DNA of 29,108 nt, taken from a virus. Under the pieces are notes generated by a model that was given only the letters and a program-made list of their open reading frames with translations, was not told the origin of the DNA and did no database searches. Position numbers and translations under genes: made by a program. The stretch covers positions 1 through 29,108 of IMG/VR virus record IMGVR_UViG_3300027852_000138; one strand, 5' to 3'. Shown here piece by piece: positions 2,837-27,802 of the stretch. Position 1 is the first letter of the stretch. The number at the start of each line of letters is the position of its first letter.

Positions 2837-2881
2837 CTCGTGTGCGGGGATAGAATAAAATATTTACATGAAAATATGTAA
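2837..2881 (+). pseudogene. In-frame remnant resembling the methyltransferase CGD motif
   Basis: Directly after the ParB gene's TGA, the same frame reads LVCGDRIKYLHENM up to a TAA at 2879-2881. This resembles the start of a beta-class methyltransferase domain, which usually opens with a hydrophobic pair, CGD and then a helix. The intact downstream gene has its own version, IMCGDSTKLEDVEKLM. The two are similar but not identical, so this is not a simple target duplication. It may be leftover from the methyltransferase once joined to this ParB half, or flanking DNA carried in with the HNH gene. Fourteen residues is short, so chance is possible. Confidence 0.35.
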
Positions 2882-3482
2882 AATATGCGGGAACAGTTTT
2901 GATGAACATCATTTTAATCAATCTTGTTGTGGAACAGAATGTAAATTTAAAGCCAAAAGAATTTCTCAAGAGAAATATAAGAAAACAGAAAAAGGTAGAA
3001 TATCATTAGAAAAATGGGTTAAAAGTAAAAAAAGAAATGAAAATGAAAAAAGATATCGACAAAAAGACAGAGCAAAAATGTTGGCTTGTTTAAGAACAAA
3101 AAAATATAGAAAATTACATCCACTAACAGATGAGCAATTAACGGAAAAAAGAAAGACGGACAGGGAGTATGGGAAAAGCAAAAAAGGAAGAGATATAAAT
3201 AAAATAGCTCAAAAAAAATACGGGAAAACTGCAAAAGGTAAAATAACGAAAAAAAACGGAAGAGCAAAAAAACGATCACTAGAAAAAGCTGGAACAATAA
3301 AATTAAGTGAATGGCTAATTAAATTAGAAGAACATGGGAATAAATGTGTTTTTTGTGGGAGTATAGGAAATATAGAAATGGATCATATTATTCCTTTATC
3401 AAAAGGGGGTTCTCATCATATATCAAATGTTCAACCTTTGTGTAGAAGTTGCAATGCAAGAAAGGGAGCTAAAATATTATGA
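2868..3482 (+). CDS. HNH homing-type endonuclease
   Basis: A 204-residue, very Lys-rich protein. An N-terminal zinc-finger-like CKICG (residues 4-8) with further Cys at 20, 21 and 25 is followed by three copies of a Y(K/G)K(T/S)xKG(R/K) motif at about 37, 101 and 118, likely DNA-contacting. A C-terminal HNH domain has CVFCG (160-164), MDHIIPL (171-177), GSHHISNVQPLC (181-192) and CRSC (192-195). HNH enzymes of this type cleave DNA with a bound metal and are often mobile. No strong ribosome binding site precedes the ATG. The stop overlaps the next start (ATGA). Base composition is visibly more A-rich than the ParB part. It sits between the two halves of a ParB-methyltransferase, as free-standing homing endonucleases do. 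Confidence 0.85.
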   Translation: MKICKICGNSFDEHHFNQSCCGTECKFKAKRISQEKYKKTEKGRISLEKWVKSKKRNENEKRYRQKDRAKMLACLRTKKYRKLHPLTDEQLTEKRKTDREYGKSKKGRDINKIAQKKYGKTAKGKITKKNGRAKKRSLEKAGTIKLSEWLIKLEEHGNKCVFCGSIGNIEMDHIIPLSKGGSHHISNVQPLCRSCNARKGAKIL

Positions 3483-9504: not shown

Positions 9505-9963
9505 ATGAGTACAGTAAGACAATCAAGAAAATATGATGTTGGTTTGCTATTTAAGGATGCAGGCCTAGTCGCTGCCAGTGCTGCTGCGCAAGTTGATAGT
9601 GCTGCAAAAATAGTCGATTTAGGCACAGGGAAATATGATGCTGAAATGGTCATTGATGCTTCAGCGGTCGAGGTTGGAACTGGGGATGAGTCATATCTTG
9701 TTTTCGTGCAGGTAAGCTCAAGCGCAACTTTTGCAAGTGATATTTTTAATGTGGCGTGTATGCCTCTTGGAGATGCTGCTGGGTTGGCAACGGCCTGCGG
9801 TGCAGGTGATGTTGATCAGGGAGTAGGTCGTTACATACTTCCTTTTAACAATCTTGTCAAGGATGGAGTGGCGAAACGATACGGTCGAATCTACACCGTT
9901 GTTGCAGGTACGATTGCAACAGGTGGCGGGATAAACTTTACTGCTTATGCAACGCAAGGATAG
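9505..9963 (+). CDS. Probable capsid cement protein (Bbp16-like)
   Basis: A 152-residue beta-rich, Ala/Gly/Val-rich protein directly after the capsid gene, with AAGGAGGA before its ATG. The segment AAKIVDLGTGKYDAEMVID followed by alternating strands and a final GRIYTVVAGTI strand fits small jelly-roll-like decoration proteins of the Bbp16 type, which trimerise on the capsid surface and stabilise it. The place in the gene order agrees. An alternative would be a head fibre or a DUF2190-like protein. Its last bases overlap the next gene by 17. Confidence 0.6.
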   Translation: MSTVRQSRKYDVGLLFKDAGLVAASAAAQVDSAAKIVDLGTGKYDAEMVIDASAVEVGTGDESYLVFVQVSSSATFASDIFNVACMPLGDAAGLATACGAGDVDQGVGRYILPFNNLVKDGVAKRYGRIYTVVAGTIATGGGINFTAYATQG

Positions 9964-10423
9964 TCGAATACTTATTATAGGAAGTGCGCCTTGTCTTCAT
10001 GCTGATTTATCATTATATGAGCATGAAGGCAAGGTCATGGCTATCAACGAGGCGGGTGTTAAATATTTGGATAATATAGATTATTGGATTACGGCGCACC
10101 CTGCTGAGTTTTCTGGATGGAAAAGGAATCGGGAATTGCAGAAAGGAAACAGCGATTATGAGACGCATACTTGTGATGACTCTGGTGAATGTGATAGACA
10201 TTGGGAATATTCAGCAAAAGGCGGGTCTGGGCTGTTTGCAATTTTAATTGCGATTGAGATGGGATTTGATAAAATAGTGATTGCAGGAATGTCGTTGGAT
10301 GGTCACTATGAGAGGTATAGAGAAGATTTTAAATATTTTGATTTGCAAGGAAAAATCAAATGCCTGTCTGGGTATCTGATGGATTGTTACGGTTTTCCCG
10401 ATGAACAATGGCTGTATGAATAA
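9947..10423 (+). CDS. Rossmann-like protein, possibly DUF115/MptE-like
   Basis: A 158-residue protein. It begins with a strand-loop RILIIGSAPCLHAD (residues 7-20), then MAINEAGVKYLDNIDYWITAHP (31-52). A glycine-rich turn GGSGLFAILIAIEMGF (92-107) is followed by the strand KIVIAGMSLDGHYERYREDF (109-128). This pattern resembles the nucleotide-sugar-like or MptE-like Rossmann fold (DUF115 group) found as an accessory gene in some phages. Substrate and reaction are unknown; surface modification or DNA-base metabolism are both possible. ATG 9947 lies within the end of the decoration gene, and there is only a weak ribosome binding site. Function confidence is low, gene confidence high. Confidence 0.65.
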   Translation: MQRKDSRILIIGSAPCLHADLSLYEHEGKVMAINEAGVKYLDNIDYWITAHPAEFSGWKRNRELQKGNSDYETHTCDDSGECDRHWEYSAKGGSGLFAILIAIEMGFDKIVIAGMSLDGHYERYREDFKYFDLQGKIKCLSGYLMDCYGFPDEQWLYE

Positions 10424-10939: not shown

Positions 10940-10957
10940 GTGATATGGAGATTTAAC

Positions 10958-11129
10958 ATGTATGATTTTGATGATGAATTAGCACAAACTTACAGAGAGA
11001 GATGTAAATGTGGAAGGATAGTAGAGGTTGCAACTCAAAAAAAATCATGATTATGTTGAATATAGGGCATATATTTTTGTAAGATGCACTTGTGGAGAAT
11101 TCGTAGGATTTAATCTTCTAGTAAATTAA
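10958..11129 (+). pseudogene. Zn-ribbon protein with a frame break at an A8 run
   Basis: ATG 10958, with TGGAG upstream, gives 30 residues containing CKCGRIVEVA, then stops at TGA 11048-11050. Downstream of an A8 run (11037-11044), the +1 frame reads HDYVEYRAYIFVRCTCGEF and ends at TAA 11127-11129. The two parts together form a compact ribbon of about 56 residues with matched CxC and CxCG pairs. One base less or two more in the run would restore it. It is either a real broken gene, a slippage-expressed gene or a sequence error. Confidence 0.5.
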
Positions 11130-11144
11130 AAAAAGGAGAATCGA

Positions 11145-18362: not shown

Positions 18363-19959
18363 TGTAACCGTAAAAAAAGATATTGTCGTCCGATTTATAA
18401 CCGACATGAAGAAGGCCAAAAAGGATGCTCAAATTTATGAGAATCAGGTCGGCCGTGTTGGTACAGCGTCAAGCAAGGCTAGCGGTGCTGTTAAGGGCAT
18501 GGGCGCAAGTGGCGGAATGGCGATGTCTGGTCTGGCGGGGTTGGGCGGAGCTGCTATGTCAACGGTTGCGCCGATTGCTGCGATTGGTGCTGGATTGATT
18601 GTTGTTAAAAAGGGATTCGATAAAATTATTGATGCAGGCAAGGAAGCGGAGGATGCACTGACAACGTTAGGCGTTATGTTCAAATCCGAAGCAAAGGGAA
18701 TGGAAGTCTACCAGAAAGCACTTGAGCGAAGTGTTGTCACTCCGTATGATCCGAGAGACATTGTCAAGGCAAGTGTTCAGGCACAGGGCTATATTGGCAA
18801 GGCTGGAAATGTTTTTACAAATGGGCTGTATGGCATGAAAAAGGATGCTATGACTGTTATAGCAGATATGGCAGCGTTTAGCGGGCAAACGGCGGTCGAG
18901 GCGTCTACGGCTTTGTTCAGGGCAGATTTGCAACTACTCGACAAATACGGCGCAGATGCAAGACGAGTCTATGCAATAGCAAAGACAAAGGGTGCAATCG
19001 GGACAAAGGCTTTTGTCTCTGAATTTGTTAGGGGTATGAGTGAGATTGATACTTGGGCAGGCATGAGTGAAAAAAGATCGAAAACTATGTCAGGTATTAT
19101 ATCGACAATAAAGGGTAACTTTGGATTGATTTTTACTTACTTGAGCGGGGCAACCTCTACGCAGACAACTTTGTGGACTAACTTAAAAGGTATGATTTCA
19201 GGATTTTCAGATGCCTTTGGTAAATTTGTGGCAGAAGCAAAACCATATTTGGAGATGTTCGGAGCACATGTTGGAGATATATTTGGGACAATTAAAGATT
19301 ATCTTGTTGCGATTTGGGGATTTGCATTCCCGATAATAAAAGTTTTCTTTGGTACTATATTTGTTCTTGGAAAAATTTTATGGATGACTGTAATCAAGCC
19401 AGTAATAAAAATTATTACTTTTGGGTTGAAATTGCTGAAAACATTTTTCGGCTTTCTGTTTAAGCTGGGCGGTGCTGGTTCAGAAATGAAACGCATAATG
19501 ACATGGATAGAAAATTTCACAGGGCACATGAGCACGATGTTTTTTCTGACAGATAAATTATTTTCTAGTATGCTGGAAACTTTTGACGAATGGCTTGCCT
19601 CTTTTGGAAATGTAGGGGAGAAAATAAAAGAGTTTGTTAAACCTGTGGCAGAACTCAATGAAAGTATAGGGGGATGGGTTGACGAAAAAGTAAAAGGGAT
19701 TATGAAAAAGACTGGAAGAAAACCATTGATGGAGCATTTAATCGAATCGGTTGAACCAAAAACAGACAGTACCGAATTTGAAAAGAAAAAAATTATTGAA
19801 TTAAAAGGGAAACAAGGCTCTAACATTTCAAATGACAATCGGAGATACGCAAGTAATGATTTAAGCAAAAAAAATTCTCACAATGTAATATATAATTATA
19901 ATTATTTTAGCGATTTAAATATGCAGGATGTTTTGGATCAATCAGGGATAGCAAGCTAA
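18355..19959 (+). CDS. Tape measure protein
   Basis: A 534-residue protein with GTG start; its first codons lie inside the extended chaperone frame. It has a charged N-terminus, a Gly/Ala-rich hydrophobic hairpin (GLAGLGGAAMSTVAPIAAIG near residue 60), and a second long hydrophobic region around 320-375 (LVAIWGFAFPIIKVFF, GKILWMTVIKPVIKII), typical of tape measures that contact the membrane. The middle is helical with Ala and Gly (EASTALFRADLQLLDKYGAD). About 534 residues suggests a tail tube of roughly 80 nm. It sets tail length and is ejected before the DNA. No muramidase domain is seen. Confidence 0.85.
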   Translation: MADVTVKKDIVVRFITDMKKAKKDAQIYENQVGRVGTASSKASGAVKGMGASGGMAMSGLAGLGGAAMSTVAPIAAIGAGLIVVKKGFDKIIDAGKEAEDALTTLGVMFKSEAKGMEVYQKALERSVVTPYDPRDIVKASVQAQGYIGKAGNVFTNGLYGMKKDAMTVIADMAAFSGQTAVEASTALFRADLQLLDKYGADARRVYAIAKTKGAIGTKAFVSEFVRGMSEIDTWAGMSEKRSKTMSGIISTIKGNFGLIFTYLSGATSTQTTLWTNLKGMISGFSDAFGKFVAEAKPYLEMFGAHVGDIFGTIKDYLVAIWGFAFPIIKVFFGTIFVLGKILWMTVIKPVIKIITFGLKLLKTFFGFLFKLGGAGSEMKRIMTWIENFTGHMSTMFFLTDKLFSSMLETFDEWLASFGNVGEKIKEFVKPVAELNESIGGWVDEKVKGIMKKTGRKPLMEHLIESVEPKTDSTEFEKKKIIELKGKQGSNISNDNRRYASNDLSKKNSHNVIYNYNYFSDLNMQDVLDQSGIAS

Positions 19960-26865: not shown

Positions 26866-26895
26866 TTTAAAAATAATTTAAATTTTAAAAAGTAG

Positions 26896-26923
26896 GGCGG
26901 GTGAAATTCCCGCCTATAATTTT
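26896..26923 (+). terminator. Probable intrinsic terminator
   Basis: GGCGGG (26896-26901) pairs perfectly with CCCGCC (26909-26914) around the loop TGAAATT, followed by TATAATTTTA. The stem is GC-rich in an otherwise AT-rich region and lies directly behind the holin-like gene, but the U-run is short and broken. It probably ends or reduces transcription from the tail operon. Confidence 0.65.
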
Positions 26924-27103
26924 ATGAAAAAAAAAGAACCACCACCGTTCCCACGAGACTGGAAATTAGCAATCCCGCATCTATTTTTTTATAGATCGAA
27001 AGAGATATTATTATTTATTATTATTATTCTGGCGGTGGGGATGGCTTGTTTGTGGAAGTTCCCAGACGAAGTTGTTGCAATAATCAAGGAGCTTAAGAAA
27101 TAA
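26924..27103 (+). CDS. Small membrane protein
   Basis: A 59-residue frame from ATG 26924 to TAA 27101-27103. A basic proline-rich start (MKKKEPPPFPRDWK) is followed by one membrane helix (EILLFIIIILAVGMACLW, residues 27-44) and a charged amphipathic end. It could be a lysis accessory or a spanin-like protein, but no lipobox is seen. The last base is shared with the next ATG. The ribosome binding site is poor, and the ATG lies just after the terminator. Confidence 0.5.
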   Translation: MKKKEPPPFPRDWKLAIPHLFFYRSKEILLFIIIILAVGMACLWKFPDEVVAIIKELKK

Positions 27104-27369
27104 TGGAAGCAGTATCTACTTTGGTTGTTGGTGGAATCTTAACTCTTATGATAACAATATCTGGAATATTGGCAAGGAATGCACTAAGTAATGTGAAGGA
27201 TGTAATAAAAGAACACACGAACATTTTAAAGTGTATTGAAAATAAATTAAGCGACTTGCGGGTTGAAATTGCAAAAGAATACGTGAGAACTGAGGATAAA
27301 GACAAATGTCAAGGATCAAATAACGCAGCTCATGCTGAACTCAGGAAGGAAATAAGGGGTGTGGTATAA
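27103..27369 (+). CDS. Membrane-anchored coiled-coil protein (lysis-type accessory)
   Basis: An 88-residue protein with one N-terminal membrane helix (TLVVGGILTLMITISGIL, residues 6-23), followed by a heptad-like coil KDVIKEHTNILKCIENKLSD. The C-terminal part YVRTEDKDKCQGSN and ELRKEIRG is charged. This is the pattern of small phage proteins near holins. AAGGAG lies 12 bases before the ATG. Role: possibly lysis or membrane regulation; not certain. Its stop TAA shares its last base with the next ATG. Confidence 0.55.
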   Translation: MEAVSTLVVGGILTLMITISGILARNALSNVKDVIKEHTNILKCIENKLSDLRVEIAKEYVRTEDKDKCQGSNNAAHAELRKEIRGVV

Positions 27370-27467
27370 TGGGATTTTCCATAACACAGAGCATTGAACT
27401 GAAGCCCTCTCAACTGAGCCAATGGGGGATTGCTCTTAACGTTATGGGGGATTCCAGAGGAAAATAA
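27369..27467 (+). CDS. Possible short peptide inside a structured RNA
   Basis: A 32-residue frame from ATG 27369, overlapping the previous stop, to TAA 27465-27467. AGGGG (27355-27359) sits 9 bases before the ATG. The peptide (begins MGFSITQSIELK, ends NVMGDSRGK) matches nothing I know. The whole frame lies within the long hairpin described separately, so it may be a leader peptide or a chance frame. Confidence 0.35.
   Translation: MGFSITQSIELKPSQLSQWGIALNVMGDSRGK
27370..27456 (+). ncRNA. Long + strand RNA hairpin of unknown function
   Basis: The outer arms 27370-27385 and 27441-27456 pair over 16 positions: 12 Watson-Crick and four G.U pairs (27373.27453, 27376.27450, 27377.27449, 27378.27448). 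After an internal loop of AC opposite TAAC there is a further six-pair stem, AGAGCA (27388-27393) with TGCTCT (27431-27436). The apical region is 37 bases, with TTG/CAA able to pair. On the other strand the G.U pairs would be A.C mismatches, so the structure is specific to + strand RNA. No known family recognised. Confidence 0.55.
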
Positions 27468-27468
27468 A

Positions 27469-27627
27469 ATGAATACAGAAATAAGAGAATGTGTTTGTTG
27501 CGAACATTTAAGATTATTTACGGATGATAATGACGTATGTGAAAATTGTGGGATTGAATATCATAGTGATGAAACTGACACATATGTAAATGTGTTAGAG
27601 ATGATGGATGCGATGGAGAGGATATAA
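27469..27627 (+). CDS. Small Zn-ribbon protein
   Basis: A 52-residue protein from ATG 27469, with AGAGG about 8 bases upstream; an in-frame earlier start at 27430 would lie in the RNA hairpin and is not preferred. CVCC (8-11) and CENC (24-27) pairs give a typical treble or ribbon zinc site. An acidic tail follows (DETDTYVNVLEMMDAME). Possibly a regulator or an inhibitor of a host protein; unknown. Its 3' end holds the GGAGAGG that serves the next gene. Confidence 0.6.
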   Translation: MNTEIRECVCCEHLRLFTDDNDVCENCGIEYHSDETDTYVNVLEMMDAMERI

Positions 27628-27628
27628 A

Positions 27629-27802
27629 ATGATAACTGTAGGATTTTGTCCACATTGTGGCGCACCTATTTATGCGCCTTCTGTATGGCATGGAATTACA
27701 CCTCCACCGTCAACTTATTCTTGTATGTGTAGCAACGGCAACACTTCTGTTGGGATAGTTACAACCTCATCTACAGCACCAAATATTTCATACAGGAAAT
27801 AA
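27629..27802 (+). CDS. Small Zn-ribbon-like protein
   Basis: A 57-residue protein; ATG 27629 is preferred to 27608 because GGAGAGG lies 7 bases before it. It starts with MITVGFCPHCGAPIY, a classical CPHCG knuckle, and has a second pair CMC at residues 32-34, so the zinc site may be incomplete or of a variant kind. The remainder is Ser/Thr-rich. Function unknown; its neighbours are accessory proteins near the adhesin. Confidence 0.55.
   Translation: MITVGFCPHCGAPIYAPSVWHGITPPPSTYSCMCSNGNTSVGIVTTSSTAPNISYRK

Follow-up and report, generated by a model that had tools for sequence, protein, structure and literature searches.

A predicted RNA hairpin that coincides with a 32-codon frame between two small genes of an uncultured tailed phage

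Genes and features at the locus

The window analyzed here is a virus record of 29,108 bases, taken at its full length and possibly a fragment, and it encodes a baseplate J protein, a portal protein, a scaffold protein and a GP7-type major capsid protein, which together identify it as the DNA of a tailed phage. A gene for an HNH endonuclease is found at positions 2868-3482 (Pfam HNH_5, E 4.8e-13), upstream of the terminase gene, which is a usual place for a packaging-associated HNH endonuclease.

The features described below lie between two small genes on the + strand. The upstream gene is an open reading frame at 27103-27369 that encodes an 88-aa protein with an N-terminal hydrophobic segment followed by a charged tail. 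The protein is holin- or spanin-like by appearance only, and its comparison with PHROGs returned only weak matches, the best of which was phrog_462 'lipoprotein' (E 0.003). The downstream gene, at 27469-27627, encodes a 52-aa protein with two CxxC pairs that is zinc-binding by appearance, for which we found no Pfam match and a weak match to phrog_31214 (E 0.0012). Its Shine-Dalgarno sequence, AGAGGA, is located at 27456-27461 (+ strand). Two features, both on the + strand, occupy the interval from the stop codon of the 88-aa gene to this Shine-Dalgarno sequence: a predicted RNA hairpin at 27370-27456 and a 32-codon frame, MGFSITQSIELKPSQLSQWGIALNVMGDSRGK, at 27369-27467, which runs on beyond the hairpin to 27467.

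In the gap before a gene for a 59-aa membrane-type protein, a terminator-like stem, GGGCGGG..CCCGCC, is found at 26895-26923 and is followed by ATAATTTTAT. On the - strand, too, a stem with a T-rich tail can be read, and the MFE of this gap has a z score of -2.45.

Predicted fold of the hairpin and its stability

An earlier note on this DNA had described a hairpin at 27370-27456 with a 16-pair outer stem that includes four G.U pairs, an asymmetric internal loop and a 6-pair inner stem, all of which were recovered on refolding. In the computed fold, 27370-27385 pairs with 27441-27456 in 16 uninterrupted pairs, of which 27373-27453, 27376-27450, 27377-27449 and 27378-27448 are the G.U pairs. An internal loop of 2 nt / 4 nt separates this outer stem from the 6-pair inner helix, beyond which the MFE fold also has a 5-pair terminal helix. 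The MFE of the 87-base hairpin is -32.0 kcal/mol on the + strand, and the hairpin remains the MFE structure when it is folded within 141, 221 or 528 bases of the surrounding sequence. By these predictions, the hairpin is able to form in RNA as described. The statement of the earlier note that only the + strand folds in this way is correct in kind (-32.0 vs. -24.0 kcal/mol), but the - strand of the same interval retains a shorter version with an 8-pair stem. The outer stem begins at 27370, the base right after the upstream TAA, and ends at 27456, where the next Shine-Dalgarno sequence begins. AGAGGA thus follows directly after the stem with only its first base paired, and its mean unpaired probability in the free fold is 0.83.

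Comparison with shuffled sequences gave different answers at different scales. Dinucleotide shuffles of the 87 bases had a mean of -20.6 kcal/mol, so that the hairpin has a z score of -4.2, with 1 of 200 shuffles being as good; in a larger run, 21 of 10,000 dinucleotide shuffles matched its stability. Window-wide, in contrast, 13 of 16 block-shuffled copies of the 29-kb sequence contained a + strand 90-mer at about -32.0 kcal/mol or lower. Uninterrupted stems of at least 16 pairs, counted on both strands, were expected 0.5 times per shuffled window vs. two seen. The real window also contains 90-mers that are more stable than the hairpin (at 18493 and 9967) or about equally stable (at 9769), all of them within coding sequence. 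When the comparison was restricted to the eight gaps in our own gene map that are at least 40 bases long, the gap with the hairpin was the most significant (9 of 3000 shuffles, or ~0.02 after correction for eight). Because the site was picked from 29 kb, because folds of this stability are common across the window and because this gap is nevertheless the best of eight, support for a structure under selection is moderate.

The most serious rival to a functional structure is a chance fold, in which a mini-gene or an untranslated spacer happens to fold well and the structure has no function. The equally stable 90-mers in the block-shuffled windows, the expected number of long stems and the two more stable 90-mers within coding sequence all point to it, whereas the local rarity of the fold, its corrected significance among the gaps and the exact coincidence of its two ends with the upstream stop codon and the downstream Shine-Dalgarno sequence argue against it. 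We regard a chance fold as unlikely but well worth keeping in mind; it ranks second after a mini-gene with a structured start, which explains most.

A compact strong hairpin is also predicted at 9988-10035 on the + strand, about 40 bases into a gene for a 158-aa protein (9947-10423); its 21-nt arms are 86% complementary, are separated by 4 nt and form 16 uninterrupted pairs with G.U pairs included. The longest gap in the gene map, at 10940-11144 (205 bases), has an ordinary fold (z -0.6).

The 32-codon frame and its fit to the neighboring genes

The ATG of the 32-codon frame shares its A with the TAA of the 88-aa gene (27367-27369), giving TAATG at 27367-27371, and this start codon is located at the foot of the stem. 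The frame's own TAA ends one base ahead of the ATG of the 52-aa gene. A Shine-Dalgarno-like AAGGGG, read from the sequence at 27354-27359 (+ strand), precedes the frame and is about half accessible in the predicted fold. The frame had been mentioned before as overlapping the hairpin; it does exist, but overlap is too weak a term, since the hairpin sits inside the frame. Equally snug placement of a frame was found in 1.2% of shuffled gaps. Junctions of -4, -1, 0 and +1 are usual among the other genes of this phage, and this interval would be the largest gap of the tail-to-adhesin region if the 32-codon frame were absent. The predicted fold, the frame and the exact fit of both to the flanking genes are what the sequence shows, and the support for the frame is no weaker than that for the hairpin.

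As coding evidence, the codon usage of the frame is equivocal. It scores in the lowest 2% of 31-codon stretches known to be coding and within the upper 14% of open frames other than a gene's own, which corresponds to a likelihood ratio of 0.29, mildly against coding; the accepted neighboring gene at 27608-27802 scores about as low. When the fit and the codon usage are combined informally, coding is perhaps favored by about four to one, which is a judgement rather than a computed probability. Recoding of the peptide with the codon usage of the phage gave a mean of -17.1 kcal/mol and reached -32.0 kcal/mol in none of 3000 trials, while permutation of the frame's own synonymous codons gave a mean of -20.9 kcal/mol and reached -32.0 kcal/mol in 35 of 3000. 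Because recoding rarely or never yields the observed stability, codon choice contributes to the fold, which is more than a by-product of the peptide. This contribution would be expected if the RNA is under selection, but equally if the sequence is non-coding in origin.

If the origin were non-coding, the frame would be accidental, and the intercistronic hairpin, as a cis element, would serve to protect the polycistronic mRNA, to process it or to tune the 52-aa gene. The slight lean of the codon usage toward non-coding sequence is consistent with such an element, as is a stem that stops at the first base of the next Shine-Dalgarno sequence and leaves it open. The exact fit of the open frame to both neighbors argues against it, however, and no relatives were found in which conservation of the stem could show. 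A purely non-coding cis element is, in our view, rather improbable, but more likely than the explanations taken up at the end.

Possible translational coupling

We tentatively propose that the 32-codon frame is a small gene of a late operon whose genes are closely packed, that the intercistronic hairpin masks its start and that ribosomes translating the upstream gene open the stem; we give this reading somewhat less than an even chance. In the fold predicted for free RNA, pairing in the stem begins with the U and G of the mini-gene AUG, whose unpaired probabilities are 0.16 and 0.00, respectively. As long as the 88-aa gene is untranslated, the start of the mini-gene would be held closed by the stem. 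A ribosome ending at the UAA of the 88-aa gene would sit over roughly ten bases at the start of the 5' arm and open the stem, after which the mini-gene could start by re-initiation at UAAUG. When 27350-27380, the assumed rough footprint of a ribosome at the upstream stop, was blocked, the outer stem was lost and the predicted energy of the 191-base context changed from -45.5 to -26.5 kcal/mol, a cost of ~19 kcal/mol. We infer both that the 32-codon frame is translated and that its translation is coupled in this manner. Two marks of coupled gene pairs are found here: the downstream start overlaps the upstream stop (TAATG), and the RNA structure includes the downstream start in the predicted fold.

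Coupling of this kind would belong to the RNA-unfolding or re-initiation type. Similar hairpins at coupled starts are found in other phages, such as those of the filamentous phage f1 VII/IX and MS2 coat/lysis gene pairs (reviewed in PMC12548453). The f1 VII/IX hairpin is proposed to keep the downstream start closed for as long as the upstream gene goes untranslated (PMC12548453). The present locus resembles f1 VII/IX in that a long hairpin lies where two small, closely spaced phage genes meet (PMC12548453), but differs in that the hairpin follows the upstream stop and extends over nearly the whole 32-codon frame; the two are likened by arrangement and not by sequence. As in MS2 coat/lysis, the start of a small gene would lie in an RNA structure that is opened by the ribosomes of the upstream gene (PMC12548453), which is a prediction here, whereas the MS2 genes overlap by 50 nt and those described here by one base. 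Opening of the MS2 structure need not occlude the downstream RBS (PMC12548453).

The direction of the effect may also be the opposite. Structure right after the upstream stop is reported to have reduced coupling in a screen (PMC12548453), so the hairpin could also damp coupling. The Shine-Dalgarno sequence of the 52-aa gene is largely open (0.83), which counts against the hairpin as an off-switch for the CxxC gene. A leader that controls the Zn-ribbon and adhesin genes had been suggested earlier: control of the adhesin gene, which is ~0.7 kb and three genes downstream of the hairpin, is unsupported, with nothing to link the two. The hairpin may act on the start of the mini-gene itself and perhaps also on the Zn-ribbon gene that follows. 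That the locus represents an undescribed phage RNA element, in which one sequence is both the 32-codon frame and a regulatory hairpin and forms a switch, controlled by translation, that lies between lysis-type and adhesin genes, strikes us as quite improbable.

Should the proposed coupling be true, this locus would add one more case of structure-controlled re-initiation of a very small phage gene. Its main use would then be to recall that strong hairpins in compact operons should be tested against the reading frames they overlap. The present evidence opens no new class.

Search for relatives and remaining explanations

No Rfam family had a match anywhere in the window at the gathering threshold, and in lax mode the region around the hairpin gave only chance-level scores, for T-box (11.7 bits; threshold 93) and snoZ247 (14.4 bits; threshold 38), in agreement with the earlier note, which had recognized no known class. 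No homologue of the hairpin interval was found in IMG/VR, phage or plasmid records, nor was any homologue of the 32-codon peptide in any of the collections searched, and an exact search with the pattern of the 5' arm found no relatives of the hairpin. A back-translated SQWGIALN pattern gave six matches, which were rejected as chance: three were one identical stretch and two another, and their frames contained stops.

The same note had offered a small RNA, or an RNA to which a protein of the phage or its host binds, as explanations. The + strand bias of the fold and the lack of an Rfam class are in keeping with these, but promoter-like matches in the region are no more frequent than in shuffles, and no second copy or relative was found in this record or in the collections searched. 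An intrinsic terminator, with a G+C-rich stem followed by a U run, is not present at 27370-27456 either, where GAGGAAAATAAAATG comes after the stem. A stand-alone small RNA and a protein-bound RNA thus both appear very unlikely; a novel RNA class is possible, with no positive evidence for it. A frameshift or readthrough element was also considered and rejected, as reading by eye showed no X XXY YYZ site ahead of the UAA, and frame 0 runs for four codons until it is closed again. Least credible of all is a mobile or recombination hairpin (an integron attC-like site, a palindromic repeat or an insertion) between the two genes: the element fills the gap exactly and the stem break after ..AAC / GTT.. 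superficially resembles an R box, spacer and L box, but the 7-mers CCATAAC/GTTATGG do not match the attC consensus RYYYAAC/GTTRRRY, the stem runs nine pairs further and no second copy was found in the record or the collections searched.

Searches with the flanking and tail proteins covered the neighborhood more widely. Those with the 88-aa and the 52-aa CxxC proteins found no copy of the hairpin, the peptide or the CxxC protein, and neither did those with the baseplate J protein (alone and as an alignment) and a tail-fiber-like protein. A search with a 111-aa protein found one 54% match, in record L002, in a different neighborhood, and no relative turned up when genomes were scanned with the baseplate alignment and with the terminase. 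The closest records, L003 and L004, share 55-59% in the baseplate J protein; beyond the tail fibers they have different genes, with no detectable copy of the 88-aa, 52-aa or 32-aa proteins. The most stable folds downstream of the baseplate gene in L003, L004 and L006 include no similar hairpin. The window's 375-aa tail protein begins with ~190 residues that are found twice in L003 and six times in successive tail-fiber genes of L006 (9501-18579).
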